Assembly: GCF_009827055.1 (NCBI RefSeq)
Contig: NZ_WUMK01000005.1
Location: forward strand, 186,001-250,000
Direction of reading: 5' to 3'
Length of the DNA: 64,000 bases
Origin: Shinella kummerowiae
Lineage (GTDB): Bacteria > Pseudomonadota > Alphaproteobacteria > Rhizobiales > Rhizobiaceae
A program made the translations under genes and the position numbers. This document shows positions 7,157 to 53,053 of this stretch, piece after piece. A model generated the notes under the pieces. It did not search any database, was not told the origin of the DNA, and was given only the letters and a program-made list of their open reading frames with translations. Each line of letters opens with the position of its first letter. The stretch's first letter is position 1.

Positions 7157-7164
7157 GAGCTGAC

Positions 7165-7953
7165 ATGACCGACCCTACCGAAACCTTCCTCGCCTTCTCC
7201 GAAAAACTTGCCGACAGCTCGCGCGCCCTGCTTCTGTCCGCCGCTGCTGAAGCGCCACGGGTCGATCTGAAACAGGATGCGAGTTTTGTCACAGCCACCG
7301 ACCGCGCCGTCGAGGCGCGGCTGCGCGAACAGATCCGCGCCGCTTTTCCCGATCACGGCATCATGGGCGAGGAGCACGGCAGCGAGCGGCTCGACGCCGA
7401 ATTCGTCTGGGTGCTCGACCCGATTGACGGAACGGCCGCTTGGGTGGCCGGCATTCCGGTCTATGGCACGTTGATTTCGCTGGCGCACGGCGGCAAGCCG
7501 TTGCTGGGCGTGATCGATCTTCCCGCGACCGCCGAGCGCCTGACCGGTATTTCCGGCCGTGGCGCGTGGCACAACGGAAAACCGATCCGCTGCCGCAAAG
7601 GCACCGCACTTTCCGATGCCTACATGACCTCCTCGAACCCCCGCTTCGTCCCCGAAGCGGACCGCGCGCCCTTTGCGCGCCTCGATGCGGCGGTGCAGTT
7701 CACCCAGTATGGCGGCAGTTGCTACAGCTATGCCTGCCTTGCCCGCGGCCGCACCGACCTCGCCGTCGATGCCGGTTTCGATGCCTACGACCTTTTCGCC
7801 CCCACGGCGATCATCGAAGGCGCCGGCGGCATCGTGACCGACTGGGAGGGCCAGCCGCTCGATCTCGGCTGGCAAGGCCGGGTGATTGCGGCTGGCGACA
7901 GAGCCCTGCATGCCGCAGCCCTCGAGCGTCTTGGCCCTCGAATATCCGGGTGA
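7165..7953 (+). CDS. Inositol monophosphatase family phosphatase
   Basis: A 262-residue metal-dependent phosphatase of the IMPase/HisN/CysQ family. The metal-binding residues are seen as MGEEHG (the motif I glutamate), LDPIDGTAAWV (motif DPxDGT) and the late aspartate in AYDLFAPTAIIEGAGGIVTDW. The family acts on inositol phosphate, histidinol phosphate, fructose bisphosphate or adenosine bisphosphate; the sequence does not separate these. It is 8 bases after the ATPase stop and thus belongs to the amino acid uptake operon. ATG 7165 is preferred over a TTG four codons earlier. Confidence 0.87.
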   Translation: MTDPTETFLAFSEKLADSSRALLLSAAAEAPRVDLKQDASFVTATDRAVEARLREQIRAAFPDHGIMGEEHGSERLDAEFVWVLDPIDGTAAWVAGIPVYGTLISLAHGGKPLLGVIDLPATAERLTGISGRGAWHNGKPIRCRKGTALSDAYMTSSNPRFVPEADRAPFARLDAAVQFTQYGGSCYSYACLARGRTDLAVDAGFDAYDLFAPTAIIEGAGGIVTDWEGQPLDLGWQGRVIAAGDRALHAAALERLGPRISG

Positions 7954-7967
7954 GGACGAGGGCCAAG
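7930..7967. terminator. Hairpin between convergent phosphatase and SIS-domain genes
   Basis: Perfect 11-base arms cttggccctcg and cgagggccaag flank a 16-base loop that contains the phosphatase stop codon. There is no T run on either side, so it may be a convergent-gene barrier or an mRNA-end stem rather than a classic terminator. Confidence 0.5.
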
Positions 7968-7981
7968 GCAGGGTAGTGCCG

Positions 7982-9034
7982 TTATTCGACGATCGTGATT
8001 TTCGAGCCGTTGAGGAATTTTGCGGGCTCATATCCGCGCGCGATTGCCATCGGCACCATGAGGAGCTGGATGGGCAGAATCTCGAGAACGGGCAGGAGGC
8101 CGGTGGCGACGGCGGGAAGAGCGATGGCCATCTCTTCAACGCCCGAAACAGCGCTCGCCGGCGCGATCGTCAGGCAGCGTCCGCCGAAACTGGCGATATC
8201 CGCCACGGTCTTGGCGTTCAGTTCCTGCGTCGAGGCCTGGTCTCCTGTGAACATCACACTGCAAAATCCGTCGCGAACCAGTTCCAGCGGGCCGTGGCGG
8301 AACTGCCCGCCAGACAGCGCCTGCGTCGGCGCTTTGGCGGCTTCGGCGGTGACCAGCGCCGCCATCATCGCACTGCCGTAGCTGCCACCGCGGCCAATGA
8401 AGGTGAGGGGTTTGTCGTGGCCGAGGAAGGTCAGCATCTCGCCGGTTTGCGCCGGCAGGTCGGCAAGAAGGCTGGCGACCGCATCTGCGAGCGTTGCGAT
8501 CTCGGCCCCAAGCGCTTCGCCGTTGCCGACAAGCAGTTGCTCGAAAATGTAGAGTGCAACGAGGCCGGCGGTGTAGGTCTTGGTGGAGACGGTCTGCTCC
8601 GGACCGACTTCCGTAGCGAGAGAGAGCGACGACCAGCGCGACAGGCTGTTGTCGGCTGTGTTGGTGATGGCGACCTTGATGCTGACGCCACCATCCAGCT
8701 CCGTCATGCGGCGCAGCTCGACGCTTTCGCCGGACTGGGAAATTGCCACGACAAGGGTACCCTTGCGCAGGACGCCCGGCGCTTGCTGAATGAGTTCGGA
8801 ACTGTCCCACAGCGAGACGGGAACCGGCAGCGACTGGCTGAGCCGCAGCCATGTGCCGTAGGCGCTGAACAGGGAACCGCCCATGCCCGTGAGGATGACG
8901 TGGTTTACCTCACCCTTGTCGATGGCCGTGCGGATGGCCTGCACGTCGGCAATGAGCCACGGCGTTATGAGGCTGGCGAGCTTGCGAATGCCTGCGGGCT
9001 GTTCTGCGATTTCATCGAGGTAGGATTGGGACAC
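7982..9034 (-). CDS. SIS-domain sugar isomerase/deaminase (GlmS isomerase-domain-like)
   Basis: A 350-residue protein with two SIS folds. The first has VVAISQSGESVEL near residue 100, the phosphate-binding SIS motif. The second has the FIGRGGSYGSAMMAAL stretch followed by GGQFRHGPLELV, as in the isomerase half of GlmS. No glutaminase domain precedes it, so it resembles AgaS/FrlB/NagB-II-type enzymes that deaminate or isomerise sugar phosphates. Start chosen at GTG 9034, with GGAG five bases upstream; a longer in-frame extension overlaps the kinase gene and has low-complexity shadow composition. It is third in the GntR-ROK-SIS operon, which fits amino-sugar or fructosamine catabolism. Confidence 0.85.
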   Translation of the reverse strand: MSQSYLDEIAEQPAGIRKLASLITPWLIADVQAIRTAIDKGEVNHVILTGMGGSLFSAYGTWLRLSQSLPVPVSLWDSSELIQQAPGVLRKGTLVVAISQSGESVELRRMTELDGGVSIKVAITNTADNSLSRWSSLSLATEVGPEQTVSTKTYTAGLVALYIFEQLLVGNGEALGAEIATLADAVASLLADLPAQTGEMLTFLGHDKPLTFIGRGGSYGSAMMAALVTAEAAKAPTQALSGGQFRHGPLELVRDGFCSVMFTGDQASTQELNAKTVADIASFGGRCLTIAPASAVSGVEEMAIALPAVATGLLPVLEILPIQLLMVPMAIARGYEPAKFLNGSKITIVE

Positions 9035-10878: not shown

Positions 10879-12477
10879 TCAGCCTCGCGTCATGGCCGCA
10901 GCGATCTTTTCGGCGGCCATGATGATCGGGGCGTTGATATTGGCGGACGGAACGCGCGGCAGGATCGAACCATCGACGATGCGCAATTTCTCCAACCCGT
11001 GGACGCGTCCTGCCGAGTCGGTGACGGCGAGGTCATCCGAACCCATGCGGCAGGTGCTGGTGGGGTGATGTTCGGTGTTGGCGACGGTGCGAAGCCATGC
11101 CTCAATTTCGGCGTCGGACGCCGTGCGCTCCGGCGTATCGACCGCTGCACCCTTGTAGCGCAACCAGGCGGACTGGTTCGCCATGTCCAGCGTCTTGCGG
11201 ACGCCGTCCACCATTTCGAGAGTGTCGCGCCGGTCGGTCAGATAATTGAAGCGGATGGACGGCTTTGCTGCGGGGTCGGCCGATTTAAGCGCGATCCGGC
11301 CGCGGCTATAGGGCCGCATCTGGCTGACGAAGTACTGAAAACCCTCCGAGATGGTCACCTTGCCGGACTGGAAGTCCGCCAGGAACGGCAGGAATTCGTG
11401 CTGCATGTTGAAATAGTCGATGGCGTCGCTGCTTTTGAAGAAGGCGCCGACCTCGAAAAAGTTGGTGGCGCCGAGGCCGCGCTTGAACAGCAGCCATTCG
11501 ATGCCGAGCTTCAGCCGGCCGACCATATTCAGTTGCCGGCGGATGGAGACGCCGCCGGGCGAGGTGAAGCGCAAGGGGGCGACGACATGGTCCTGCAAGT
11601 CGGCGCCGACGCCCGGCAGGTGCGCGGTGCTGGCAATGCCGTGCTCGTTCAGTGCTGTACGGTCACCGATACCGGAGAGCATCAGGAGATGCGGCGAACC
11701 GACCGTTCCGGCCGACAGGATGGTTTCGCGCGCTGCACGGATCATCTTGCGTTCGCCACGTTGGGAAAGGGTGACCCCGCCGGCCGTGCGGCCATCGACA
11801 AGAATTTTTTCCACGAGGCATCCGGTCATCACCGTCAGGTTCGGGCGGCGACGTGCCGGTGCGAGATAGGCGAGGCTGGTGCTGCAGCGCACGCCGTCGC
11901 GGATGGTCGCCTGGGTAATATGGACGCCATCCTGTTCACCGCTGTTGTAGTCGCCGGCATCGCGAAGGCCGAACTCCTGGCCGGCCGAAAGGAAGGCGCG
12001 GTAGAGCGGATGATCGGCCTTGCTGCGCACCACGCTGATCGGGCCTGAACCGCCACGCATCGGATCACGGCCGCCCTCAAAGCTCTCCAACTTCTGGAAA
12101 TAGGGCAGGCAATCGTCGAAATCCCAGCCTTCGACACCGAGACTGCGCCAGCTGTCGTAGTCCTGCCGTGCGCCACGCACATAGACCATGCCGTTGATGG
12201 AGGAACTGCCGCCAAGCCCGCGGCCGCGCGCTTGTCCTATGCTGCGGCCGTGCAGTTCCGGCTCGGGCTCGCTCTCGAATTTCCAGTTGTAGCGATCGCT
12301 TTCGATGGGGAATGTCAGCGCCGCCGGCATCTGGATGAAGATGCTGCGGTCGCTCGGGCCGGCTTCGAGCAGGCAGACGGAGACGGCCGGATCTTCCGAT
12401 AGGCGATTGGCCAGCACGCAGCCCGCCGAGCCGGCGCCGACGATGACATAGTCGAATTCCTGGGTGCTCTTGATCAT
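10879..12477 (-). CDS. GMC family oxidoreductase, choline-dehydrogenase-like
   Basis: A 532-residue FAD enzyme. The dinucleotide motif VGAGSAGCVLANRL is at residues 12-25, followed by the GMC signature GRGLGGSSSINGMVYVRG around residue 83. The C-terminal catalytic region shows EHHPTSTCRMG (active histidine) and SANINAPI (second active position). The family oxidises alcohols or sugars. It has no Tat or Sec signal, so it acts in the cytoplasm. It is divergent from the sugar ABC operon, so its likely substrate is the imported sugar or its aglycone. Confidence 0.88.
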   Translation of the reverse strand: MIKSTQEFDYVIVGAGSAGCVLANRLSEDPAVSVCLLEAGPSDRSIFIQMPAALTFPIESDRYNWKFESEPEPELHGRSIGQARGRGLGGSSSINGMVYVRGARQDYDSWRSLGVEGWDFDDCLPYFQKLESFEGGRDPMRGGSGPISVVRSKADHPLYRAFLSAGQEFGLRDAGDYNSGEQDGVHITQATIRDGVRCSTSLAYLAPARRRPNLTVMTGCLVEKILVDGRTAGGVTLSQRGERKMIRAARETILSAGTVGSPHLLMLSGIGDRTALNEHGIASTAHLPGVGADLQDHVVAPLRFTSPGGVSIRRQLNMVGRLKLGIEWLLFKRGLGATNFFEVGAFFKSSDAIDYFNMQHEFLPFLADFQSGKVTISEGFQYFVSQMRPYSRGRIALKSADPAAKPSIRFNYLTDRRDTLEMVDGVRKTLDMANQSAWLRYKGAAVDTPERTASDAEIEAWLRTVANTEHHPTSTCRMGSDDLAVTDSAGRVHGLEKLRIVDGSILPRVPSANINAPIIMAAEKIAAAMTRG

Positions 12478-28340: not shown

Positions 28341-29840
28341 ATGACCCAGACCGCAGACATCGTCATCATCGGCTCCGGCATCGGCGGTGCGTCGCTCGCC
28401 CACAGCCTGGCGCCCTCCGGCTTGCGGATCGTCATCCTCGAACGCGGCGATCACCTGAAGGACAGCCCGCAGGCGCGTGATGACCGCGCGATCTTCCAGA
28501 AGGGGTTTTATCGGTCGTCGGAGGAGTGGCTTGGCACGGACTGCGAGAGTTTCCTTCCCGGCAACTACTACTATGTCGGCGGCAATTCGAAGTTCTTCGG
28601 CGCCGTCATGTATCGCTACCGCCGCGAGGACTTTGCGCCGCGACCGCACATGGACGGTGCATCGCCGGGCTGGCCAATGTCCTACGAGGATTTGTCGCCC
28701 TGGTACGATGCGGCGGAGAGCATATTCCGGGTGCGTGGCTCCGTTGCCGGTGATCCGACTGAGCCGGCGCACGCCAAGCCCTATGCCTATCCGCCGGTGC
28801 CTGACGAGCCGGCGATCGCCGCAGTCCGCCGTAGGCTGGAGAAGGCGGGGATCCACCCGGCAGCGCTGCCGCTATCGATCGATATCGACGCCTGGCTGAA
28901 ACGGGCGCCGACGGGCTGGGATGCGTTTCCGAACACCGGCGCCGGCAAGATCGATGCGGAGGTCGGCCCGCTTGCCAGTGCGCTTACGCATCCTAATGTC
29001 AGCCTCGTGACCGGCGCCAGCGTGACGCGCCTTGAAACGGACGAGGCGGGCCGCCGGGTCGTCGCCGCCATCTATGTGAAGGACGGGGCCGAGCAGCGCA
29101 TTTCCGCGGATCGTTTTGCCGTGGCGGCGGGCGCGGTCCAGAGCGCAGCACTTCTCCTGCGCTCTCCCAGCAAGGCCCATCCGACCGGCCTCGCCAACAG
29201 CTCGGATCAACTGGGCCGTAATTTCATGAACCACAACACGACGGCGATGCTGACGATCGATCCCTTCGCCGCCAACACCTCAGTCTACCAGAAGACCATC
29301 GCCTTCAACGATTTCTACAACGCGGACAACGACGACGGCGCGCCGCTCGGCAACGTCCAGCTTCTCGGCCACATCACCGGCAACATCCTCAAGGCCAATC
29401 TTCCCTTTCCGGCGCCGACCTGGGTTGCAAGGCTGATCGCCCGCTACGCCTATGGTTGGTTCCTGACGAGCGAAGACCTGCCCAATCCGGAAAGCCGCGT
29501 GATGGTGCGCGACAACCGCATCGTCATGCACTGGATCCGCTCGAACATGCGCGCGCATGAGGCGCTGATCACCAAGACGCGTGCTGTCATGCGCAAGGCC
29601 GGTTTCCCGATCGTGCTGACGCACACCTTCGGCCGCAAGACAACGTCGCACCAATGCGGCACGGCGCGCATGGGCAGCGATCCGCAGACCTCGGTCGTCG
29701 ATCTCGATTGCCGCAGCCACGATGTCGAAAACCTCTACATCACGGATGCGTCCGTGCTGCCGACATCGGCTGCCGTCAATCCGGCTCTGACCATTGCTGC
29801 CCTCGCGATCAAGGCCGGCAGCGCCATTTCAAGGGGGTGA
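28341..29840 (+). CDS. GMC family oxidoreductase, sugar dehydrogenase type (gluconate 2-/glucoside 3-dehydrogenase-like)
   Basis: A 499-residue FAD enzyme. The N-terminal nucleotide motif is IIGSGIGGASLAHSL (about residues 8-22). The C-terminal catalytic region reads TSHQCGTARMGSD with the active histidine, then AAVNPALTIAALA. HQCGT and the NPALT block are typical of the branch with gluconate 2-dehydrogenase, fructose dehydrogenase and glucoside 3-dehydrogenase large subunits. The protein lacks a signal peptide, and no small subunit or cytochrome gene is beside it. It begins 8 bases after the ATPase stop, so it acts on the imported sugar. Confidence 0.85.
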   Translation: MTQTADIVIIGSGIGGASLAHSLAPSGLRIVILERGDHLKDSPQARDDRAIFQKGFYRSSEEWLGTDCESFLPGNYYYVGGNSKFFGAVMYRYRREDFAPRPHMDGASPGWPMSYEDLSPWYDAAESIFRVRGSVAGDPTEPAHAKPYAYPPVPDEPAIAAVRRRLEKAGIHPAALPLSIDIDAWLKRAPTGWDAFPNTGAGKIDAEVGPLASALTHPNVSLVTGASVTRLETDEAGRRVVAAIYVKDGAEQRISADRFAVAAGAVQSAALLLRSPSKAHPTGLANSSDQLGRNFMNHNTTAMLTIDPFAANTSVYQKTIAFNDFYNADNDDGAPLGNVQLLGHITGNILKANLPFPAPTWVARLIARYAYGWFLTSEDLPNPESRVMVRDNRIVMHWIRSNMRAHEALITKTRAVMRKAGFPIVLTHTFGRKTTSHQCGTARMGSDPQTSVVDLDCRSHDVENLYITDASVLPTSAAVNPALTIAALAIKAGSAISRG

Positions 29841-29842
29841 TG

Positions 29843-31489
29843 ATGGGACTTCGAGACATGGGATCGGCGCGCCACGGCATCATGCCCAAGCATCCGGCAG
29901 AAATCTCGACATTCGACTATATCGTGGTCGGTGGCGGCTCGACCGGTTGTGTTGTCGCCTCGCGTCTTTCCGAGGACCCGGCCGTCAATGTCCTGCTGAT
30001 CGAGGAGGGGCCACGCGACCGCAACCCCTACATCCACATTCCCGGTGCCTACTACAAGACCGCGCAGGGCGATCTCTTGAAGCGCATCCCCTGGGAGCCG
30101 ATGGAAGAGCAGGAGCGCACGGAAACACCGACCATGGTGCAGGCCCGGGTTCTCGGCGGCGGCAGTTCGGTCAACGCGATGATCTACATCCGCGGCGTGC
30201 CGGCCGACTATGAGCAATGGGTCGGGCTTGGCGCCGAAGGCTGGGGCTACGTCGATGTCCTGCCCTTCTTCAAGCGTGCCGAGGACAACAACCGCTTCTG
30301 CAACGCGGCCCATGGCGTCGGCGGCCCGCTCGGTGTCTCCGACATCGACTACATCCACCCGCTGACCCGCGCCTGGCTACAGGCCTGCCAGCAGGCGGGC
30401 CTGCCCTATAACCCCGACTTCAACTCCGGTAATCCGGAAGGGTGCGGTCTCTATCAGATCACGGCCCGCAACGGCCGGCGCAGCTCGGCCGCTGTCGCCT
30501 ATCTCAATCCCGCGCGCAGGCGGCGCAACCTCCGTATCGAGACCGGCACCATGGTCACGCGCATCCTTGTTGAGAACGGACGGGCAGTTGGTGTCGAATG
30601 CGTCAAGGGCAAACGCACCGTGGTCTACAGGGCGGACCAGGAAGTCGTGGTGTCAGCCGGGGCGATCGCCACGCCAAAACTCCTGATGCTGTCGGGCATC
30701 GGGCCTGCGGAGCAGATCCGTCGGCAGGGCATCGCGGTGCATGCCGATCTACCGGGCGTTGGCCAGAACCTGCAGGACCATATCGAGATTTCACTCGTCT
30801 ACCAGCTCAACGGCCCGCACAGCTACGACAAGTACAAGAAGCCGCACTGGAAGGCGCTTGCCGGCTTGAACTATGCGCTGTTCCGCAATGGCCCCGCATC
30901 CTCCAATCTCATCGAGGGCGGCGCCTTCTGGTGGGGCGACAGGAACGAGGCGAGCCCGGACATCCAGTATTTCATGGTCGTCGGCGCCGGGATCGAGGAG
31001 GGCGTCGATGCGGTTCCGGGCGGCAACGGCTGCACGGTCAATCTTGGGCAGATCCGGCCGCGCTCCCGTGGGGAGGTTACGCTGCTGAGCGCCGATCCGG
31101 CGGCACATCCCCGTGTGGCGCCCCGCTATTTTTCCGATCCCTACGATCTCGAAGCCATGACCGATGGCGCAATGGCGGCAATCGATATCATGGCGCAACC
31201 GGCGATCGCAAAATTCGTGGCGGCACGGCACGCGCCCTCGCCATCCCTCACGACCCGCGAGGAGATCAGGGCCTTCTGCGTCAAGGATGCGCATGCAGCC
31301 CTTCATCCCGCCGGGACATGCCGGATGGGCGTCGATGACATGGCCGTGGTCGATCCGGAACTGCGCGTGCACGGCATCGAACGGCTGCGCGTTGCCGATG
31401 CGTCGGTCATGCCCACGCTGATTTCCGGCAACCCGAACTCCGTCTGCATCATGATCGGTGAGCGGGCCGCAGACTTTATGCGTTCCTAG
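29843..31489 (+). CDS. GMC family oxidoreductase, choline-dehydrogenase-like
   Basis: A 548-residue FAD enzyme, different from its upstream neighbour: IVVGGGSTGCVVASRLSED near residue 26, GMC signature VLGGGSSVNAMIYIRG around residue 105, and catalytic HPAGTCRMGVDD with ISGNPNSVCIMIG at the end. It is closer to the GMC protein at 10879-12477 than to the one just before it. Two ATG codons lie in tandem; the second is used because AAGGGGG is 5-6 bases away. It is the last gene of the operon. Confidence 0.87.
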   Translation: MGLRDMGSARHGIMPKHPAEISTFDYIVVGGGSTGCVVASRLSEDPAVNVLLIEEGPRDRNPYIHIPGAYYKTAQGDLLKRIPWEPMEEQERTETPTMVQARVLGGGSSVNAMIYIRGVPADYEQWVGLGAEGWGYVDVLPFFKRAEDNNRFCNAAHGVGGPLGVSDIDYIHPLTRAWLQACQQAGLPYNPDFNSGNPEGCGLYQITARNGRRSSAAVAYLNPARRRRNLRIETGTMVTRILVENGRAVGVECVKGKRTVVYRADQEVVVSAGAIATPKLLMLSGIGPAEQIRRQGIAVHADLPGVGQNLQDHIEISLVYQLNGPHSYDKYKKPHWKALAGLNYALFRNGPASSNLIEGGAFWWGDRNEASPDIQYFMVVGAGIEEGVDAVPGGNGCTVNLGQIRPRSRGEVTLLSADPAAHPRVAPRYFSDPYDLEAMTDGAMAAIDIMAQPAIAKFVAARHAPSPSLTTREEIRAFCVKDAHAALHPAGTCRMGVDDMAVVDPELRVHGIERLRVADASVMPTLISGNPNSVCIMIGERAADFMRS

Positions 31490-42512: not shown

Positions 42513-43510
42513 AGAAGTTCCTGAATGATCCCGCTAGCTTCGTCGATGAAATGCTGGAGGGCATCTACAAGGCGCACCCCGCCGTCACCTACACGGCCGA
42601 TGACCTGCGCTGCCTCGTCACGGCGAAGACCAAGCCCGGCAAGGTCGGCATCGCGACCGGCGGCGGCTCCGGCCACCTGCCGACCTTCCTCGGCTTTGTC
42701 GGCGATGGCATGCTTGACGGTGCCGCTGTCGGCGGCGTCTTCCAGTCGCCCAGTGCCGAACAGATGTACCAGGTGACCAAGCATATCGATCAGGGTGCCG
42801 GCGTCCTGTACATCTACGGCAACTACACCGGCGACATCATCAATTTCGACATGGCGGCGGAACTGGCCGATCTCGATGGCATCGTGGTCAAGCAGGTCGT
42901 CGGCAATGACGACGTTGCCTCCTCGGTGGTCGGCGAAGAACACAAGCGCCGCGGCGTCGCCGGCATCTTCTTCATCTACAAGGCAGCCGGCGCAGCTGCC
43001 GCCGAAGGTCTTTCACTCGACGAGGTGACGCGCCTCGCCGACAAGGCGCGGCTGCGCACCCGCACCATGGGCGTTGCCCTTTCGAGCTGCGTCGTTCCGG
43101 AAATCGGCCACGCCACGTTCTCGATCGGCGCGGACGAGATGGAAATCGGCATGGGCATTCACGGCGAGCCCGGCATCAGCCGCAAGAAACTGGCACCGGC
43201 CGATGCGGTCGTCGACGAGATGATGGAGCGTATTTTTGCGGAAACGGACTACAAGCAGGGCGACACCGTTGCCGTGCTGATGAACGGGCTGGGCGGCACG
43301 CCGCTGGAAGAACTCTATATCTTCTTCCGCCGCGTCTCGCAGCTTCTCGAAGCGCGTGGCGTCACGGCCAAGCATGTCTGGATCGGCGAGTTCGCCACCT
43401 CGATGGAAATGGCCGGCGCCTCGATCTCGATCCTGCACCTCGACGAGGAACTCGACCGCCTCGTCGCTGCCCCGGCCAACACACCGTTCTTTCAGCACAT
43501 TGCGGGGTGA
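42509..43510 (+). CDS. DhaK-like kinase subunit (dihydroxyacetone kinase family)
   Basis: A 333-residue DAK1-domain protein that binds the keto sugar. It has [21 protein letters not shown] near residue 50, and the substrate-linking histidine in [13 protein letters not shown] near residue 218. The family also phosphorylates erythrulose and other small ketoses. The usual GSGHEP reads GSGHLP here. It pairs with the DhaL gene and follows the ribose-type ABC transporter in the same operon, so it probably phosphorylates the imported ketose or a product of it. GGAG precedes ATG 42509. Confidence 0.88.
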
Positions 43511-43514
43511 TGGC

Positions 43515-44162
43515 ATGAGCAAGCAGACATTGAACGCCGCCGACCTGATCGACCTCTTCAAGAGCTGGAAGGCACTTTTTGCCGAACAGCGCGAATTCCT
43601 CATCGCGCTCGATGGCAAGGTGGGTGACAGCGACCTCGGCATCACCATGAGCAAGGCCTTCGCTGCCGCCGCCGAGGCGCTCGAGGCGGAAGGCGCGGAG
43701 GCGGGCATCGCCAAACTGCTGCGCACCGCCGGGGCGACCATGGCGCGCACCGCGCCCTCCACCATGGGCACGTTGACGGCGACGGGTTTCCTGCGGGCCA
43801 GCAAGGCGGTGGAGGGCAAGGACGACCTCGGGACGGCAGAGCTTGCCGCTTTCTGGCGCGCCTATCGCGATGGCGTGGCCGAGCGTGGCAAGGCTAAGGT
43901 GGGCGACAAGACATTGCTCGACGTTCTCGACCCCATTGCGGTAACGCTGGAGGCACAGGCGGCAAGCAATGCGGCCCTTTCCGACGCGCTGGCGGCAACG
44001 TCGCAGGCAGCCGAGCAGGCGCTGGAAGCCACGAAATCCATGCTTGCGCAACACGGCAAGGCGGCGGCATTCCAGCAAAAGACGGTCGGCCTGCAGGATG
44101 CCGGAGCAACGGTCGGCTATTTCCTCATCCGCCGCTTGGCCGAGTTTCAGGCCTCCCGGTAG
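43515..44162 (+). CDS. DhaL-like kinase subunit (ATP-binding) with variant motif
   Basis: A 215-residue DAK2-domain protein. The magnesium-ATP aspartates are visible in DGKVGDSDLG (D33, D38, D40). The usual GGaSG motif is replaced by APSTMGTL (residues 80-87). This variant fits DhaL partners in non-dihydroxyacetone systems such as erythrulose kinases; that link is from memory and needs a search. It is last in the operon. Confidence 0.85.
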   Translation: MSKQTLNAADLIDLFKSWKALFAEQREFLIALDGKVGDSDLGITMSKAFAAAAEALEAEGAEAGIAKLLRTAGATMARTAPSTMGTLTATGFLRASKAVEGKDDLGTAELAAFWRAYRDGVAERGKAKVGDKTLLDVLDPIAVTLEAQAASNAALSDALAATSQAAEQALEATKSMLAQHGKAAAFQQKTVGLQDAGATVGYFLIRRLAEFQASR

Positions 44163-44219: not shown

Positions 44220-45284
44220 TCATCGACGTCTGTGTCGGAACTCGCTCGGTGAACTCTGGTATTTCTTCCGGAATGCCGTCGCCAGATGGGCTGAATCGGA
44301 AAAACCCGTTTCATGGGCGATCGCCGTGACGGGCAGCACGCTGTTGTCGAGCAGGAAGCGCACGTAGCGCAGCCGTGTCTCCAGAATGAAATGTTTCGGC
44401 GTCATGCCGATATGCGCCTGGAACAGGCGTATGAACTGGCGGGGCGACAGGCCGATCGTGCCGGCGATGCGCTCGGGCGAGACGTCCCGGCCCTTGCGGC
44501 TCTCGATCAACACGATGGCCCTTTGCACGCGGGCGTCCCCGACATGCCGGAATGCGGAGACGCGTTCGTGGTCGAAGGCGCTCATGGTCTTCTGGTCGGT
44601 CAGGGAAAGCTGGTAGACGGCCTTCGCCGCACGGTCCGGGCCGCAATGTTTGCGGATGAGTTCGGTCATCAGGGACAGCACCGATACGCCCCCCGGCACG
44701 GTGACGCGACCGTCTTCGATGAGAAAATCGTCCCGCGTGGAAAAGGGCTGTCGCGGAAACGCCACCCGGAAATCCTCCGCGTGGAAGGGGTGGATGGCGG
44801 CCTTACGCCCGACGAGCAATCCTTCCTGGGCAAGAACGAAGGCGCCGGTGCAGGCGCCGATGATGGGAACGCCGGCGGACGCGGCAACGCGGATGTAGTC
44901 GCGGTGCGAGGCCGGCGCGGCCTGGAGATGCGGAAGCAGGCCGCCGATGACGACGATATAGTCGAAGTCGGTGGGGTTGATATAGGGCGCGTCGGCGCAG
45001 ACGCGGATACCGCAACTCGCCACGACCCCATCGCCGGGTCTGCCCATGATCGACCAGCGACAGTGGATCGGGCGGGAATTGTCGGCGAAATCCGCCGCAT
45101 GGCGCAGCGGCTCCACGACACCGGTCAGCGACATCATCGGGAAGGTTGGCCACAGCAGGATGCCGACGGAAATATCGGGTTTGCGGTCGCGTGCGGCAAG
45201 CAGCCGTTCTGCCCAAAGACTATCCAGCCAACGGATGTAGTCCGCGTCGGTCTCATTGCGGGCAACATCGTCTTGTGCAGCCAT
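44220..45284 (-). CDS. GlxA family transcriptional regulator (DJ-1/PfpI + AraC)
   Basis: A 354-residue protein. Residues about 35-205 form a class I amidotransferase-like domain with the nucleophile elbow GACTGAFVLAQEG. The C-terminal AraC-type DNA-binding domain follows (ERIAGTIGLSPRQFIRLFQAHIG, then FSDSAHLATAFRKKY). Members such as ArgR/GlxA/CdhR regulate amino acid or quaternary amine catabolism. It is divergent from the amino acid ABC operon at 45457, its most likely target. MAAQ at 45284 has GGAAGGAG upstream and is preferred over a 14-codon extension. Confidence 0.9.
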   Translation of the reverse strand: MAAQDDVARNETDADYIRWLDSLWAERLLAARDRKPDISVGILLWPTFPMMSLTGVVEPLRHAADFADNSRPIHCRWSIMGRPGDGVVASCGIRVCADAPYINPTDFDYIVVIGGLLPHLQAAPASHRDYIRVAASAGVPIIGACTGAFVLAQEGLLVGRKAAIHPFHAEDFRVAFPRQPFSTRDDFLIEDGRVTVPGGVSVLSLMTELIRKHCGPDRAAKAVYQLSLTDQKTMSAFDHERVSAFRHVGDARVQRAIVLIESRKGRDVSPERIAGTIGLSPRQFIRLFQAHIGMTPKHFILETRLRYVRFLLDNSVLPVTAIAHETGFSDSAHLATAFRKKYQSSPSEFRHRRR

Positions 45285-45456
45285 GGGGGCGCTCCTTCCG
45301 GGCTCACTATGAAGGCCCCGTGTCATTTTTCAAAGAAAAAGTCTGTTTTTTAAAATCCATCCGATCGCATCGGTGGCAACATCCCTTGCGTTGAATGCAA
45401 CACCGGCCCGCCAACGCGGCCGGTCAGGGGAACCAATAACTTCAAGGATCGAACAG

Positions 45457-46338
45457 ATGACACTTTCTCTTTCGAGAAGGCTGGTGGTGTGCGCGCTGCT
45501 GGCAGGCGGGAGCTTTTCGCTATTTTCCTCCACGGCACAGGCTTTCGACCTCGCCGAGCAGGGTAAATTGACGGTCGCCTTCACCGGCGACATGCCGGGC
45601 TCCGGCTGGCAGGATGGCAAGCTGATCGGCTATGACGGCGAGATCATGCAGAAGGTGGCCGAAAAACTTGGTCTCCAGGTTCAGCCGGCTCTGATGGAGT
45701 GGTCTGGCACCATTGCCTCGGTCGAGGCGAGCCGCGTCGATGTGATGCTCGGCACGATGGGCTGGACGGAAAAGCGCACCCAGATCATGAGCCTTTCCGA
45801 ACCGATCCACTACTTCAAGAACGGCATCATGCAGTCTTCGAAGACCAACTGGGACAAGCTCTCCGACCTGGAAGGCAAGAAGGTCGGCACCATCACCGGC
45901 TTTTCGTTCGTGCCCGAACTGAAGAAGATTTCAGGCCTGGAACTGTCGCTTTACGACACATCCGATGCCGCCGTGCGCGATCTCATCGCCGGCCGCATCG
46001 ATGCCGTCATCGGCGATCCGCCGGTCGTTTCCTATGCGATCAAGCAGAATCCGGACTGGAACATGCATTTCCTCGCCTTCACCGACACAAGTCCCGACTT
46101 TCCCCTGCTGACGGGCCTCGGGCAGGTGGTCTACGGCTTCAACAAGAAGAACGACGACCTGCGCCAGAAGGTGGACGGCATCATCGCCGAGATGTGGAAG
46201 ACCTGCGAGATGAAGGCGATCGGCGAGCGCTACGGCCTTTCCGCCGATGTCTGGTATACGCCTGCCGGTGAGAATTTCCGGGCCGGCGTCGACCGCGCCG
46301 CGGATTACAAGCTGCCATCCTGCGCAGCCGGTGGCTGA
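45457..46338 (+). CDS. Polar amino acid ABC transporter substrate-binding protein (SBP_bac_3)
   Basis: A 293-residue periplasmic receptor. Residues 1-28 form a signal peptide ending in AQA. The mature protein has LTVAFTGDMPGSGWQDGKL and GYDGEIMQKVAEKLG, then IGDPPVVSYAIKQN near residue 187. It is the first gene of an operon with an ATPase, two permeases, a hydrolase-Rid fusion and a flavin oxidoreductase. The ligand is likely an amino acid or gamma-glutamyl or amine derivative, judged from those enzymes. AAGGATC lies before ATG 45457. Confidence 0.9.
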   Translation: MTLSLSRRLVVCALLAGGSFSLFSSTAQAFDLAEQGKLTVAFTGDMPGSGWQDGKLIGYDGEIMQKVAEKLGLQVQPALMEWSGTIASVEASRVDVMLGTMGWTEKRTQIMSLSEPIHYFKNGIMQSSKTNWDKLSDLEGKKVGTITGFSFVPELKKISGLELSLYDTSDAAVRDLIAGRIDAVIGDPPVVSYAIKQNPDWNMHFLAFTDTSPDFPLLTGLGQVVYGFNKKNDDLRQKVDGIIAEMWKTCEMKAIGERYGLSADVWYTPAGENFRAGVDRAADYKLPSCAAGG

Positions 46339-46345: not shown

Positions 46346-46376
46346 CGGGCGGTGGCCGCACCATGGCCGCCGCCCG
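46346..46376 (+). promoter_or_regulatory. Intercistronic hairpin after the binding-protein gene
   Basis: 12-base arms cgggcggtggcc and ggccgccgcccg pair with one G-U pair around a 7-base loop. It starts 7 bases after the stop codon and 28 bases before the ATPase start. It is the strongest of the post-binding-protein stems in this window. Confidence 0.7.
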
Positions 46377-46404
46377 ACGGTCTCTCAATCATAAGGGGAA
46401 TGCC

Positions 46405-47157
46405 ATGAACCCGCTGCTGAGCGTGACGGGCCTGACGAAGAGCTATGGTCCGGTCGAGGTGCTGAAGGGGATCGATTTCGACGTGGCGGCGGGCGAAAAG
46501 ATCGCCCTGATCGGCCCCTCCGGGTCGGGCAAGTCGACCTGCCTGCGCTGCCTGAACTTTCTGGAAAAGCCAAGTGCCGGTGAAATCCATCTCGACGGTG
46601 AACGCATCGGCGTTCGCCTCGACCGGCCGATGAACGACCGGCAGCTTGCGCCGCAGCGCGCCGAAATGGGCATGGTCTTCCAGCTCTTCAATCTCTGGCC
46701 ACACCTCTCGGTCACGGAAAACGTCGCGATTGCCGCACGCAAGGTGCGGGGCCTGTCGGCAAGGGAGGCACGCGAACTGGCGCTCGATATGCTGGCGAAG
46801 GTGCACATGACCCATCGCGCCGACGCGTCGCCGCTGGAGCTTTCCGGCGGTCAGCAGCAACGCGTCGCCATCGCCCGGGCGCTGGCCCAGAAGCCCAAGC
46901 TGATGCTGTTCGACGAGCCGACCTCGGCGCTCGACCCCGAACTGGTGCACGAAGTGCTGAAGGTGATGGAGGAACTCGCCGCAGAGGGGCGCACCATGCT
47001 GATCGTGACGCATGAGATCGCCTTTGCCCGCGATATCGCCGACCGGGTGCTGTTCCTGGATGGCGGCAGGATCGTCGAGCAGGGGCCGGCGCGCGATCTG
47101 ATCCTGTCTCCACGCGAGCCGAGAACCCAGGCGTTTCTCCGCCAGATCCGGCATTGA
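46405..47157 (+). CDS. Polar amino acid ABC transporter ATP-binding protein (GlnQ/HisP-like)
   Basis: A 250-residue ATPase with Walker [10 protein letters not shown], signature [15 protein letters not shown], Walker [16 protein letters not shown] and switch histidine IVTHEIAFA. AGGGG lies before ATG 46405; an earlier frame extension runs into the hairpin. Confidence 0.94.
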   Translation: MNPLLSVTGLTKSYGPVEVLKGIDFDVAAGEKIALIGPSGSGKSTCLRCLNFLEKPSAGEIHLDGERIGVRLDRPMNDRQLAPQRAEMGMVFQLFNLWPHLSVTENVAIAARKVRGLSAREARELALDMLAKVHMTHRADASPLELSGGQQQRVAIARALAQKPKLMLFDEPTSALDPELVHEVLKVMEELAAEGRTMLIVTHEIAFARDIADRVLFLDGGRIVEQGPARDLILSPREPRTQAFLRQIRH

Positions 47158-47167: not shown

Positions 47168-47827
47168 ATGATCGGGTCATCAACCTTCACCCTGATTTTG
47201 CAAGGACTGCTCACCGGGGCTGGCGTCACCGTCGTTGTCACGCTGGTGTCGTTGTTGCTGAGCCTATCCCTCGGCTTCGGTCTCGCTCTCGTCCGCCAGT
47301 TCGCAAAGCGCCGCGGGCTGCACGCCATGATCGACCTCTATTGTGAGATCATGCGCAACATTCCAGCGTTGACCCATCTGTTCATCCTCTATTTCGGGCT
47401 GGCCAGCATCGGATTCCGGCTCTCGTCCATGGCCGCCGCGATCCTCGGCCTGGGGCTGATCGGCGCCGCCGTCACCTGCGATCTTTTTCGCGCGGGTTTT
47501 GCGGCCCTGCCGAAAGGCCAGGCCGAGGCCGCGCTTGCGGTCGGCTTCACACCCTCCCAGACGATCCTCGATATCCTCACCCCGCAGGCCATGCGCCTCG
47601 CGCTGCCGTCGCTTGGAAACTATGCCGTGCAGCTTTTGAAAGACACATCCATCGTTTCCGCCATCGCCGCGCCGGAGATCATGTTCTACGCCCGCTCCCT
47701 GGTGACCTCGTCGTTCCAGACCACACTGATCTACACCATGGTCGCCGTGCTCTACCTCGCGCTCGCCCTGCCGCTGATGCAGGCGATCCGTGTTCTCGAA
47801 ACCCGATACGGAAAGCTGAAGGCATGA
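47168..47827 (+). CDS. Polar amino acid ABC transporter permease
   Basis: A 219-residue membrane protein of the HisM/GlnP family. The N-terminal motif MRNIPALTHLFILYFG and docking loop LPKGQAEAALAVGFTPSQTI are visible. GAGGGG lies 8 bases before ATG 47168. It overlaps the next permease by 4 bases. Confidence 0.92.
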   Translation: MIGSSTFTLILQGLLTGAGVTVVVTLVSLLLSLSLGFGLALVRQFAKRRGLHAMIDLYCEIMRNIPALTHLFILYFGLASIGFRLSSMAAAILGLGLIGAAVTCDLFRAGFAALPKGQAEAALAVGFTPSQTILDILTPQAMRLALPSLGNYAVQLLKDTSIVSAIAAPEIMFYARSLVTSSFQTTLIYTMVAVLYLALALPLMQAIRVLETRYGKLKA

Positions 47828-48486
47828 TCAGGTTCATCCAGCCCTACATCGACCATGCCGGCGAATGGTTGCCGCTGCTTCTGGAGGCGATGGGCAAGAC
47901 GGCATTGCTTTCGGTCTCGGCCTTCGCCTTGTCGCTGGTGTTCGGACTTCTGCTGGCGCTCTGCCGCAACACGCGGTGGCGGGCGCTGGAGCGCGGCGTG
48001 GCGTTTTACGTCACGGCCGCGCGCGGGGTGCCGCTTCTCGCCATTCTTTTCCTGCTCTATTTCGGACTGCCGGGTATCGGCGTCACCTTCGACGCCTTCA
48101 CCGCGGCCATCCTCGGGCTGGCGCTCGCCTTCGCCGCGCAGGTGGCGGAACTGTTTCGCGCCGGCCTGATGGCAATCCCCGCCGGCCAGCGTGAAGCCGC
48201 CCTTGCCGTCGGTTTCACGCCCTATCAGAGCTTTACGCTGATCGTGTTGCCGCAAGTGGTGCGCATCAGCATTGCCCCGCTCATTGTCACCTTCGTCTCG
48301 CTGCTGAAGGACTCTTCTCTCGCATCGCTGATCACGGTCGACGAACTGGTGCTGACAGGCCGGGCCATGGCGACGGAATACTTCCTGCCTTTGCAGATCT
48401 ATGTCGCCGTGGGCGTCTGCTACTTCCTGATCGCCTGGCCCTTTTCGCTTCTCTCCAGGCGTCTCGCGCCTACCGCGGCCCGCTAA
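47824..48486 (+). CDS. Polar amino acid ABC transporter permease, second
   Basis: A 220-residue membrane protein of the same family (AARGVPLLAILFLLYFG, docking loop IPAGQREAALAVGFTPYQSF). It pairs with the preceding permease; the ATGA overlap couples them. Confidence 0.92.
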   Translation: MIRFIQPYIDHAGEWLPLLLEAMGKTALLSVSAFALSLVFGLLLALCRNTRWRALERGVAFYVTAARGVPLLAILFLLYFGLPGIGVTFDAFTAAILGLALAFAAQVAELFRAGLMAIPAGQREAALAVGFTPYQSFTLIVLPQVVRISIAPLIVTFVSLLKDSSLASLITVDELVLTGRAMATEYFLPLQIYVAVGVCYFLIAWPFSLLSRRLAPTAAR

Positions 48487-48507: not shown

Positions 48508-49707
48508 ATGATACCTCCTTCCCCTGAAGGCCGCCCGACCCGGCGTGCCATCATCCTCCTGACGCCGGATATCGACGACCCGGTCGGCCCCTCCACCGAG
48601 AGGACCTATGCCGTGCGGGCCAACTATGCAGCGGCGATCAGCGAGGCGGGCGGTGTTCCGCTGATCCTTCCCTATGAAACGCAGGCGCTTGCCGCGGCGC
48701 TTGATCTCGCCGATGGCGTGCTGATAACGGGTACGATCCCCGGCACGGAAGGGGCGGCCGAGAGACGGTCGTTCGAATTGAAGCTCATCGAACATGCGAT
48801 CACGGCCGGAAAACCGCTGCTTGGCATCTGCCATGGCATGCAGCTGATCGGCGAATGGCTGGGCGGCACCTTTACGAGGAGCCTGCCCGCGTCACACAGT
48901 AAAACCGTCGATCACATGCCGAGTGCGGTTGCGGATCGGATCGCCCACGACATAGCGGTGGAGCCGGGAAGCGTGCTTGCCGACATCTCCGGTGGCGGCA
49001 CGGCCCAAGTGAACAGCCTGCATCGGCATGCCCTGACCGGTGTCGGCCGGTTCCGCGTCGCCGCCCGCGCCCGGGACGGGGTGATCGAGGCCTTCGAGGG
49101 GGAAACGCCGGGCTTTTGCCTCGGCATTCAGTGGCACCCCGAATATCGCCTGACGGATTTTGACCGCGCGATCTTCCGCATGTTCGTGGTGCGAAGCGCC
49201 GCGCGAGGGGCGAAGAGTGGGCCTGCGACACTGCATTGCTCGGTGCGGGGCCGTCTTGCCGCGCTCGGTCTTGCCCTGCCGGAAGTCTCCGAACCGCCTG
49301 GCGCCTTTGTCGGTGCGGTCAGGACTGGCGATATCGTGACGGTATCCGGCCAGGTGCCCTTGAAGGACAGGACCGTTCTTCGAACGGGCCATCTGGGAAA
49401 CGGCGTGTCTCTCGAGGACGGGCGCGAATGCGCCCGCTGGGCATGTCTCAACGCGCTCGCGCAATTGGAGCGGATCGCCGGGCGGTTCGACCGGGTGAAG
49501 GGATTCGTCCGGCTTGCCGGCTATGTCGCCGCCACTGCCGATTTTACGCAGCACGGGGCGGTGGTTGATGGTGCCTCCGAATTGCTGCGCGAGATTTTCC
49601 CGGCCTGCTGGCCGCATGCCCGTCTCGCCGTGGGCGTCGGATCGCTGCCGCGCGGCGTGCCGGTGGAGATCGAGCTGACGGCGCTGCTTGGCGACGCGGA
49701 GGGCTGA
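48508..49707 (+). CDS. Fusion of gamma-glutamyl hydrolase-like (peptidase C26) domain with a Rid/YjgF domain
   Basis: A 399-residue two-domain protein. Residues about 12-230 are a class I glutamine-amidotransferase-like C26 domain: nucleophile C108 in LGICHGMQ, and H210/E212 in IQWHPEY complete the triad. This is the PuuD-like layout, where gamma-glutamyl amines are cleaved. Residues about 245-395 are a Rid (YjgF) domain: VTVSGQVPL, then an arginine in HARLAVGVGSLP (R372), the residue that fixes the carboxylate in RidA. Rid proteins hydrolyse reactive enamines/imines. The combination in one chain, next to a DadA-like flavoenzyme, suggests hydrolysis followed by safe disposal of an imine. It lies 21 bases after the last permease. 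Confidence 0.85.
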   Translation: MIPPSPEGRPTRRAIILLTPDIDDPVGPSTERTYAVRANYAAAISEAGGVPLILPYETQALAAALDLADGVLITGTIPGTEGAAERRSFELKLIEHAITAGKPLLGICHGMQLIGEWLGGTFTRSLPASHSKTVDHMPSAVADRIAHDIAVEPGSVLADISGGGTAQVNSLHRHALTGVGRFRVAARARDGVIEAFEGETPGFCLGIQWHPEYRLTDFDRAIFRMFVVRSAARGAKSGPATLHCSVRGRLAALGLALPEVSEPPGAFVGAVRTGDIVTVSGQVPLKDRTVLRTGHLGNGVSLEDGRECARWACLNALAQLERIAGRFDRVKGFVRLAGYVAATADFTQHGAVVDGASELLREIFPACWPHARLAVGVGSLPRGVPVEIELTALLGDAEG

Positions 49708-49711
49708 GGCG

Positions 49712-50920
49712 ATGCACATCGGCGTTATCGGGGCGGGCGTGGTCGGCGTTTCGTCGGCCTATCTGCTGGCGCGGGCCGGACACAGCGTCACCTTGATCGA
49801 TGCGGAGATGGCACCGGGAAGGGGGGCGAGTGCGGCCAATGCGGGCCAATTGTCCTGGGCCTATGGCGATGCCATGGCCTCGCCCGCCTTGCTGCGGCAT
49901 CTGCCGGCCATTGTCGCGCATCGCGATCCGGCATTTCACGTCCGCCTGCGGCTCGATGCGGATTTTCTGCGCTGGGGTCTCCGGTTTCTGGCCAACGCGC
50001 CGGCGCGGCGCTGGTGGAAGAACACCAGCGCCATTCTGCAACTCGCCAAGGAATCCCGACAGGAAATGGCAATGCTTCTGGCGGAGGCGGATCTGGCTTT
50101 CGACTACCGCGTTGCCGGCAAGCTGCATCTCTATCCGGATGCGTCGAGCCTTGCCGCGGCCCGCCCGACCGTCGAGCGCAAGCGGCAGATGGGCCTTGAC
50201 CAGCGCATGCTGTCGAGGGCCGAAGCCGAAGTCGTGGAGCCGGCGCTGAGAACCTATCAGGGTGAGATAGCCGGCGCCGTCTACACCCCGGATGATGCGC
50301 TCGGCGATGCGGCGGCATTTTGCCGGCAACTAACGGACTTGATGGTGCGCCGTTCTGCCGTGTCGACGGCTTTCGGAAGGAGGGTCGTGGGGTTCGAGCA
50401 GCATGCCGGGCGCCTGTCTACCATCCGGTTTGCGGATTGCGAACCGCTGCCTGTCGATGCCGCCGTCGTGACAGCCGGCCCGCTGATCCGGACGCTAACT
50501 TCCGCCCTGCCGGAAGCACGGGCGATCCAACCCGTTGCCGGTTATTCCCTGACCGTGCCGTGGACACAAGGGGCGCCGCGCGTCAGCCTGACGGACGTGA
50601 AGCGCAAGCTCGCCTTCGCGGCGATCGGCGACCGGTTCCGCGTCGCGGGCCTTGCCGACATCGTGGCGCCCGGCTCGGGTTTTGCGCCGGATCGCTTCGC
50701 AATTCTGCGGGAAACCGCGTGCGCCGTGCTGCCCGATTGTTTCGGTCAGGCGGAATGGGCGCTGCGCTGGTCCGGTGAGCGCCCGGTGACACCAGCCTCC
50801 CACCCGACCATAGCCCCATCCCGAAAAATCCGCGGCGTCTACGTCAACGCGGGGCATGGCATGCTGGGCTGGACACTCGCGCTCGGATCCGCGAGGCGAC
50901 TGGCCGAAATGCTCGCCTGA
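49712..50920 (+). CDS. FAD-dependent amino acid oxidoreductase (DadA-like)
   Basis: A 402-residue DAO-family flavoprotein. The nucleotide motif IGVIGAGVVGVSSAYLLARAG lies in residues 3-23, and the C-terminal FAD-binding segment reads VYVNAGHGMLGWTLALGSA. It resembles the small subunit of D-amino acid dehydrogenase and may take D-amino acids, sarcosine-like or N-substituted amino acids. It starts 4 bases after the fusion gene, and GGAGGGCTGAGG gives a strong ribosome-binding site. Its imine product is a fitting substrate for the upstream Rid domain. Confidence 0.88.
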   Translation: MHIGVIGAGVVGVSSAYLLARAGHSVTLIDAEMAPGRGASAANAGQLSWAYGDAMASPALLRHLPAIVAHRDPAFHVRLRLDADFLRWGLRFLANAPARRWWKNTSAILQLAKESRQEMAMLLAEADLAFDYRVAGKLHLYPDASSLAAARPTVERKRQMGLDQRMLSRAEAEVVEPALRTYQGEIAGAVYTPDDALGDAAAFCRQLTDLMVRRSAVSTAFGRRVVGFEQHAGRLSTIRFADCEPLPVDAAVVTAGPLIRTLTSALPEARAIQPVAGYSLTVPWTQGAPRVSLTDVKRKLAFAAIGDRFRVAGLADIVAPGSGFAPDRFAILRETACAVLPDCFGQAEWALRWSGERPVTPASHPTIAPSRKIRGVYVNAGHGMLGWTLALGSARRLAEMLA

Positions 50921-51079: not shown

Positions 51080-51367
51080 ATGCTCAAGGTCATCGCACAG
51101 GATTTCATACGAGCCGAGGCAATCGGCATCGTGACACCGCTCTATCGAGAGCTCGTGGAACTCACCCGCCGGGAGCCGCTGTGCATGGGCTATGACCTCT
51201 TCACGGACCAGAAGGACCCGGGCCACTTCATCTTCATCGAAACGTGGCCCGATCGTGCAGCGTTGGACCTTCATTGCGCCACCGAGCACTTTCGCCGGCT
51301 TGTACCGCAGATTGACGCCCACCTGCGGGAAAGGGGGACCTACATCCTGATGGACGTTTTTGCCTGA
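51080..51367 (+). CDS. Antibiotic biosynthesis monooxygenase (ABM)-fold protein
   Basis: A 95-residue protein with the small ferredoxin-like fold of YgiN/ABM proteins: MLKVIAQDFIRAE at the start, CMGYDLFTDQKDPGHFIFIETW in the middle and a terminal histidine-rich helix with CATEHFRRLVP. Such proteins are dimeric quinone or heme-related monooxygenases, or act in small-molecule clean-up. The start is ATG 51080 with GGAAAG about 8 bases upstream. It stands alone. Confidence 0.8.
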   Translation: MLKVIAQDFIRAEAIGIVTPLYRELVELTRREPLCMGYDLFTDQKDPGHFIFIETWPDRAALDLHCATEHFRRLVPQIDAHLRERGTYILMDVFA

Positions 51368-52162: not shown

Positions 52163-53053
52163 ATGACCCTTTTCAGCGGCCTTTCGGCCTTTTCCATCAC
52201 CCCGACGGATACCGCAGGACGCGTCGATACGGCAGCACTCGCCCGTCTGCTCGAACGCATCTGCACAGCCGGCGCTCATTCGATCGGTCTTCTCGGCAGC
52301 ACCGGCGGATATGCCTTCCTCTTGCGGGAAGAACGGCGTCGCGCGGTGGCCGCCGCCGTGGAGAGCGTCGAGGGCCGGATTCCGATCATCGTCGGCGTCG
52401 GCGCGCTGCGCACGGACGAAGCCGAATTGCTGGCGCAGGACGCCAGCAAGGCCGGGGCGACAGGGCTGCTGCTCGCACCCATGTCCTATACGCCGCTGAC
52501 GGAGGAGGAGGTCTTCCAGCACATGTCCGCCGTCGCGAAGGCGGGCGACCTACCGCTCTGCATCTACAACAATCCGGGCACCACTCGGTTCGTCTTCAGC
52601 GACGACCTCATCGTGCGGCTCGCCGAGGTGCCAAACATCGCCGCCATCAAGATGCCTTTGCCGGCCGATGGCGATTTTCGCGGCAAACTCGGCCGTCTGC
52701 GCGCGCGGTTGCCGGCGGATTTTGCCATTGGCTACAGCGGCGATTGGGGTGCTGCCGGTTCGTTGCTAGCGGGCGGTGACGCCTGGTACAGCGTTGTCGC
52801 CGGCCTTCTGCCAGCCGAGGCATTGGCGCTCACCCATGCGGCGATGGCCGGCGACCGGGCACAAGCCGAGCGGCTCGACCAGGCATTCCAGCCGCTCTGG
52901 AACCTGTTCAAGGAATTCGGCAGTTTCCGCGTGATGTATGCCATCGCGGGCATCCTCGGCCTTTGCCAAGTCGATCCGCCGCGCCCCATCCTGCCCTTGC
53001 GCTCCGATGACGTGGCACGTGTGAGGGTTGCGGTTGATCACCTTCGAGCGTGA
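52163..53053 (+). CDS. Dihydrodipicolinate synthase/N-acetylneuraminate lyase family protein
   Basis: A 296-residue TIM-barrel aldolase. The Schiff-base lysine is in IAAIKMPLP (about residue 172) and the tyrosine in CIYNNPGTTRF (about residue 134). The GTTGE loop reads GSTGGY here, with the threonine pair as S-T. The family condenses or cleaves pyruvate-linked acids; dapA function is not assumed. AGGAG precedes ATG 52163. It is a stand-alone gene. Confidence 0.88.
   Translation: MTLFSGLSAFSITPTDTAGRVDTAALARLLERICTAGAHSIGLLGSTGGYAFLLREERRRAVAAAVESVEGRIPIIVGVGALRTDEAELLAQDASKAGATGLLLAPMSYTPLTEEEVFQHMSAVAKAGDLPLCIYNNPGTTRFVFSDDLIVRLAEVPNIAAIKMPLPADGDFRGKLGRLRARLPADFAIGYSGDWGAAGSLLAGGDAWYSVVAGLLPAEALALTHAAMAGDRAQAERLDQAFQPLWNLFKEFGSFRVMYAIAGILGLCQVDPPRPILPLRSDDVARVRVAVDHLRA

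Follow-up and report, generated by a model that had tools for sequence, protein, structure and literature searches.

In the Puu pathway, the glutamyl ligase PuuA and the aldehyde dehydrogenase PuuC are found beside PuuB and the gamma-glutamyl hydrolase PuuD. Two described operons pair an amino acid oxidase with a Rid protein. In the dad operon of Pseudomonas aeruginosa, the imine that the DadA-type enzyme releases in D-amino acid oxidation is hydrolysed by the Rid protein DadY (PMC9714295), and in the dbu operon of Pseudomonas putida the same step is carried out by DbuB, a Rid encoded beside the D-amino acid oxidase DbuA and the transporter DbuC (PMC12724383). Niehaus et al. looked for Rid fusions and describe tandem Rid repeats; the abstract and sections 5 and 6 of their paper name no C26 fusion (PMC4433059). 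In the matching passages of a gene-fusion survey (PMC4921024), Rid is named in the reference list only, and none of the papers listed in searches of the open-access literature, judged by title and start of abstract, concerned a fusion of a C26 hydrolase with a Rid domain.

Such a fusion is encoded in a window of 64,000 nucleotides from Shinella kummerowiae, the whole stretch of DNA analysed here. As in dbu and dad, a DAO-family oxidase and a Rid are encoded in one operon, and with dbu the locus also shares an importer and a divergent regulator. Unlike dbu as presented in PMC12724383, it has a C26 hydrolase and a fusion, a predicted Rid1-type domain rather than a Rid2 protein, and an AraC-type regulator instead of an XRE repressor. 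It differs from dad in that the latter has a Rid2 and an alanine racemase, and the account of that operon in PMC9714295 describes neither a C26 enzyme nor a fusion. We regard the component enzymes as known and the joined C26-Rid form as a new arrangement within the known oxidase-Rid operons (dad, dbu).

One chain with a C26 and a Rid domain

The original prediction, made from the sequence letters alone, was a single chain of 399 residues carrying C108, H210, E212 and R372, and in coordinates as in residues it agrees with the open reading frame at 48508-49707 (Table 1). Both families that it named were found by Pfam in this one chain: Peptidase_C26 covers residues 33-212 (E 5.7e-41; PF07722 score 141.1 bits, curated cut-off 20.5), while YjgF_endoribonc (residues 248-374, E 9.1e-18) and Ribonuc_L-PSP (264-393, E 1.1e-11) mark the Rid half. 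A model of the fusion monomer (mean pLDDT 79.7, pTM 0.60; weak at the N-terminus and at residues 129-133, 238-243 and 262-267) matched SpuA, PuuD and Lin1909 with its C26 half and SO_1960, Atu1372, PA0814 and ACIAD3089 with its Rid half. Existing annotation covers one half only, either as 'Atu1372/SO_1960 family' (L100, L102) or as 'gamma-glutamyl-gamma-aminobutyrate hydrolase family' (L101).

Table 1. Features of the fusion operon, numbered by position in the window.
Feature	Position	Strand	Basis
AraC-type regulator, divergent, N-terminal DJ-1/PfpI domain, GbdR-like	44220..45326	-	profile matches
Periplasmic substrate-binding protein family 3 (SBP_bac_3, polar amino acid type)	45373..46338	+	profile matches
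ABC transporter ATPase, GlnQ/HisP type	46363..47157	+	profile matches
ABC permease 1	47168..47827	+	profile matches
ABC permease 2	47824..48486	+	profile matches
C26-Rid fusion gene, 399 aa	48508..49707	+	reading frame, Pfam, structure model
C26 / class I glutamine amidotransferase-like domain, residues 12-227	48541..49188	+	triad C108, H210, E212
Linker, residues 228-247, variable in length and sequence	49189..49248	+	low model confidence at 238-243
Rid1-type domain, residues 248-396	49249..49695	+	key arginine R372
GGAGGG, Shine-Dalgarno-like, within the end of the fusion gene, 8 bases ahead of the DAO start	49698..49703	+	sequence
DadA-like FAD-dependent amino acid oxidoreductase (DAO), 402 aa	49712..50920	+	Pfam DAO E 1.9e-53

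The fused set comprises 24 distinct sequences in 27 rows, that of the window included. It was drawn from 17 of the 79 loci of a genome-contig scan (the best 80 of 204 relatives gave these 79 loci), from four of 12 plasmid records with both halves (ten were examined by sequence, H9 and H11 judged from annotation alone) and from further whole genomes. Rows L154, L111 and L112 are identical to L017, L005 and L009 and were excluded from trees; L081 was excluded as the same record as L109, and other repeats were treated likewise. All 24 sequences keep one frame, and the stop codon or frameshift between the domains that had been named beforehand as a refutation is absent from every one of them. The other fused sequences are 57-86% identical to that of the window, with linkers of differing length that are 16-47% identical. 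For seven pairs, some sharing a sequence, dN/dS was 0.10-0.28 in the C26 domain, 0.09-0.18 in the Rid domain and 0.16-1.30 in the short linker; both domains are under purifying selection. That the fusion is an artefact of sequencing or assembly, or that one of its halves is dead, is next to impossible in the face of 24 distinct in-frame sequences with invariant triad and R372 and with selection acting on both halves, and we rejected this explanation.

The distribution of the fusion is patchy. It was found in 6/394 genomes of a sample of the family (own genome included), in 2/397 of the order (own genome and G073), in 1/289 of the class (own genome only) and in 2/398 of the phylum (again own genome and G073); these four samples overlap, as the recurrence of G073 illustrates, cannot be treated as independent of one another and had only part of the candidates in each genome scored. 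All named hosts belong to the Rhizobiales, G302 and G146 to the family of the window. In the plasmid collection, four plasmids carry fused copies, one of them the Ti plasmid pTiCFBP4996 (L102). Viral contigs gave a single weak C26 match, and a survey of 240 genomes of the class for the binding protein at E 1e-90 returned the own genome only. One genome with a whole copy also contains a second piece of the fusion, partial and interrupted by a stop (L157, G430:C15:12000-12407).

The fusion gene had also been placed in an amino acid importer operon, and this is borne out by the genes for a binding protein of the SBP_bac_3 family, an ABC ATPase and two permeases upstream of it. The true start of the binding protein may lie downstream of 45373, and that of the ATPase may be a later ATG than 46363. 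Regulator, binding protein, ATPase, both permeases, fusion and DAO occur together at 22 of the 24 fused loci. In one of these (L013), permease 1 is reduced to residues 78-218; at positions 6105-7262 the ATPase is continuous with this permease, which lacks roughly its first third, either by deletion or by a fault of assembly. The exceptions are L004, which lies at a contig end, and L155, which lacks this importer. Rhizobium strain 3841 is among the carriers of the operon (L007). A homologue of the regulator was found within 6.5 kb at 23/24 loci, L004 being cut by the contig end; in L155, the copy lies downstream of the DAO gene.

Several neighbouring genes were recorded in addition. Genes with Dak1 and Dak2 domains (dihydroxyacetone kinase type, 42515-44162) end just ahead of the regulator gene, and two importers related to that of the window (L218, L219) also adjoin a dihydroxyacetone kinase gene. 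The operon is followed by genes of the ABM (51080-51367) and DHDPS (52163-53053) families, which are absent from the other fused loci compared. Two GMC oxidoreductase genes of the window (10882-12477 and 29654-31486) appear ordinary.

The two halves and the flavoenzyme

Among solved structures, the C26 half comes closest in fold to 7d53, 7d50 and 6vtv (Foldseek, E 4.5e-20 to 2.1e-19), that is, the PuuD/SpuA fold, and these matches include PuuD and crystals of SpuA with glutamate or a glutamyl-thioester bound, according to the structure titles. The fusion shares the Cys-His-Glu set with these gamma-glutamyl hydrolases, and C108, H210 and E212 are intact in 24/24 fused sequences. It differs from them in a loop near the nucleophile, between G75 and R86, which we devised as a marker in this analysis and which is not a published definition. 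This loop comprises 10 residues in all 24 fused C26 domains and in both C26-only operons described below (L018, L206; 26/26 in total) versus 23-28 residues in 72/72 other sampled C26 rows. The residue following the catalytic cysteine is H in this C26; R is commonest among the others (40/72). A further difference from SpuA and PuuD lies in the surroundings: Pfam scans of nine proteins of the operon and its neighbourhood detected neither a PuuA-type glutamyl ligase nor a PuuC-type aldehyde dehydrogenase. Judged by the loop, the fused C26 domains are not ordinary enzymes of the PuuD/SpuA type, and because the loop is shorter and a histidine follows the cysteine, the acyl group that they act upon may be other than gamma-glutamyl.

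The best PDB matches of the Rid half are PA0814, Atu1372, SO_1960 and ACIAD3089. With the RidA model TIGR00004 it reached only 26.8 bits, versus a cut-off of 106.25, and it appears closer to members of Rid1 than to RidA. PA0814 and ACIAD3089 are classed as Rid1; in their presence, less semicarbazone forms from several imino acids, iminoarginine excepted (PMC5619798). They are the nearest Rids with published assays and share the key arginine with the fusion; they are stand-alone proteins, whereas the Rid domain studied here is part of a chain of 399 residues. R372, the equivalent of Arg105 of RidA, falls within the stretch aligned to PA0814 and is retained in 27/27 fused rows (24 distinct). As trimers are the typical form of Rid proteins (PMC4433059), the fusion gene probably yields a trimer bearing three C26 units.

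An amine-oxidising flavoprotein had been predicted to follow after 4 bases, and its ATG at 49712 is indeed separated by 4 bases from the stop codon of the fusion gene, the last base of which is 49707. Together with the GGAGGG inside the fusion gene, this spacing suggests translational coupling. The DAO protein carries an N-terminal GxGxxG motif and scored 319.2 bits with PRK00711 (DadA, NCBIfam), under the cut-off of 383, so that by this measure it appears DadA-like and is not a canonical DadA. In a tree that leaves out L004 (cut by the contig end) and L103 (DAO in two frames), the DAO proteins of 23 fused rows and of seven rows in which C26 and Rid are unfused form a single clade with a support of 99, separate from 23 other DAO proteins of the sampled genomes.

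Relatives with the enzymes apart

The same three enzymes are encoded by separate genes at eight loci of rhizobia (L020, L103-L108, L138), and all eight have M20, C26, Rid and DAO in this order. These split rows share the order of the three enzymes and a related DAO with the fused operon; they differ from it in their separate genes, the long loop of C26 (23 residues in 7/8, the eighth being the decayed copy of L107), the added M20 deacylase, their other importers (of NMT1 type in L020) and the LysR regulator that adjoins several of them, where the fused operon has an AraC-type protein. The M20 protein of L106 is ArgE/DapE-like. In this same locus, the Rid gene begins in frame one codon past the stop codon of C26, which shows how short a step leads to a fusion. 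As to a possible direct descent of the fusion from such a split C26-Rid pair, the position of the split set in trees of C26, one of which used the best 36 of 63 background rows, shifts with the rows included; for the Rid domain, fused and split sequences as one clade gave an AU p of 0.073.

Two split loci have a damaged gene. In Sinorhizobium fredii CCBAU 83666 (L107, 9046-9618), C26 has apparently decayed, with K at the position of E212, a loop of 4 residues and an annotated CDS of 246 bases. The neighbouring Rid and DAO genes are whole, so that C26 seems dispensable there. In Rhizobium gallicum M101 (L103, 7812-11390), the DAO gene, perhaps along with the start of M20, is spread over two frames.

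Kinship of another sort links the fusion operon to two operons, the only ones of this type found, in which regulator and importer are followed by a stand-alone C26 gene. One stems from a metagenome-assembled genome of the Beijerinckiaceae (L018), the other from another family of the class (L206, genome G1326), and their binding proteins share 70% and 76% identity with the one in the window. In the 16.6 kb of L018, nothing matched Rid or DAO better than E 0.05, and in the 11.1 kb of L206, where the contig ends 2.8 kb past C26, nothing did so better than E 0.24. An integrase gene follows C26 in L206 and may have displaced what once stood there; elsewhere in this genome, DAO and Rid have best matches of 30% and 42% identity, respectively, as is the case for general members of these families. 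With regard to a possible secondary loss of Rid and DAO in L018, its C26 protein fell inside the fused clade in two trees and outside of it, without support, in a third, and a constraint that keeps the fused set together was not rejected (AU p 0.29).

The C26 proteins of L018 and L206 have the same importer and the same loop of 10 residues as the fused ones. The short-loop C26 thus travels with this importer; Rid and DAO were either added to the pair or have gone missing on two occasions. In both cases, no other enzyme has as close a tie to the imported compound as C26. Because no Rid or oxidase stands beside C26 in these two operons, the imported compound is most likely first cleaved by C26, and the other two enzymes would act on a product. 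The two operons could also be taken to mean that C26 scavenges amides in the manner of a glutaminase, with no link to the oxidase step, and is fused to Rid merely for co-expression. We hold this to be very improbable, as the three enzymes are neighbours in one and the same order in both the fused and the split sets, despite the differing lengths of the C26 loop.

A predicted catabolic pathway and its proposed substrate

We prefer, and give about an even chance to, a reading in which the operon serves the breakdown of an amide-linked D-amino acid, with a gamma-glutamyl conjugate as the likeliest substrate, by hydrolysis, D-amino acid oxidation and imine hydrolysis. The ABC importer would bring in the conjugate, possibly gamma-glutamyl-D-alanine or a relative of it from plants or decaying cells. 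The C26 half would cleave the amide bond by means of its cysteine and release the amino acid, the DadA-like flavoenzyme would oxidise the released D-amino acid to an imino acid, and the Rid half would hydrolyse the latter to keto acid and ammonia. In this scheme, the fusion would ensure that the first and the last enzyme are made in a fixed ratio. The original prediction had arranged import, de-glutamylation, oxidation and imine hydrolysis in this order. The order gains support from the C26-only operons, the split rows and the published oxidase-Rid operons, while the removal of a gamma-glutamyl group stays conditional in view of the loop of 10 residues versus 23-28 in 72/72 other C26 rows.

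We infer a gamma-glutamyl-linked D-amino acid because of the SpuA/PuuD-like fold, the transporter of L155, the neighbours of related importers, the precedents of oxidase-Rid operons and a compound of pea: a gamma-glutamyltransferase of this plant that produces a gamma-glutamyl-D-alanine compound is cited in PMC7432710 (its reference 59). In L155, the amino acid importer is missing; fusion and DAO are kept, the regulator lies downstream, and a divergent transporter of the peptide class adjoins. For its ATPase and its binding protein, the best-scoring models are those of the glutathione importer, GsiA (793 bits, cut-off 1077) and GsiB (113 bits, cut-off 594), respectively. Dipeptide, OppF, staphylopine and nickel models are matched by the ATPase above their cut-offs; the top models of the permeases are general oligopeptide and nickel ones. 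With the GsiA and GsiB scores below cut-off and these other models passed, 'peptide-class importer' is the safe reading. The divergent transporter, at 1103-8352 of this locus, has a gene for an M81 (microcystinase-like) peptidase between its own genes.

The surroundings of the fused set in L155 also bear on a different assignment, in which the acyl part of the conjugate is itself D-glutamate. Peptidoglycan would be one source of such a compound, which might be a gamma-D-glutamyl peptide, D-glutamine or D-isoglutamine. D-glutamate would then be freed by C26 and oxidised by DAO, and Rid would hydrolyse the imine to 2-oxoglutarate. DguA of Pseudomonas (dguABC) oxidises D-glutamate. The compound to be oxidised would come straight from C26, whose best fold matches are SpuA crystals with glutamate, and the M81 peptidase gene adjoins the fused set in L155; stereochemistry, however, is something that sequence cannot reveal, and we consider this assignment unlikely.

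Importers related to that of the window offer a further view of possible substrates. Twelve plasmid records contain a binding protein less than 60% identical to that of the window, and five of them (39-56%) were examined. Each of the five adjoins a gene for a FAD oxidoreductase, and in L220 a DSD1-family PLP enzyme stands alongside as well. The three oxidoreductases that were scanned are SoxB/ThiO-like or N-methyltryptophan-oxidase-like and not DadA-like. These neighbours, the Ti plasmid pTiCFBP4996 that carries one fused operon, the affiliation of the host with the Rhizobiaceae and the nopaline-binding proteins among the lower-ranked PDB matches of the binding protein (7.3e-12) would suit the catabolism of opine-like or N-substituted amino acids. 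A secondary amine, either an opine or a lactam, would be imported, C26 would open the amide or lactam, DAO would cut the C-N bond, and Rid would clear the imine. Against this stands the DAO of the window's operon, which is nearest to DadA and not of the SoxB type. A search of the open literature with mannopinic and agropinic gene names as a lead gave nothing useful among the matches listed. We rate opine-like catabolism as distinctly unlikely.

The preferred reading, a gamma-glutamyl or other amide-linked D-amino acid, can be taken further, to a dedicated rhizobial operon for plant gamma-glutamyl-D-amino acids such as the gamma-glutamyl-D-alanine of legumes. The short-loop C26 would in this case be an enzyme of new specificity, linked covalently to the imine deaminase; a single trimeric protein would thus carry out both the first and the last step, and the flavoenzyme would dock between them. 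We judge this extended form to be rather unlikely as a whole.

Proteins of Rid1 to Rid3 show deaminase activity in vitro, and a 2022 paper calls their relevant substrate undefined (PMC9714295); Rid2 cases have been described since. With a hydrolase fused to it and one oxidase retained as its neighbour, a Rid1 domain provides a direct handle on the imine that it acts upon. Were the substrate a gamma-glutamyl-D-amino acid, the operon would also show how a legume metabolite first described decades earlier is used by rhizobia.
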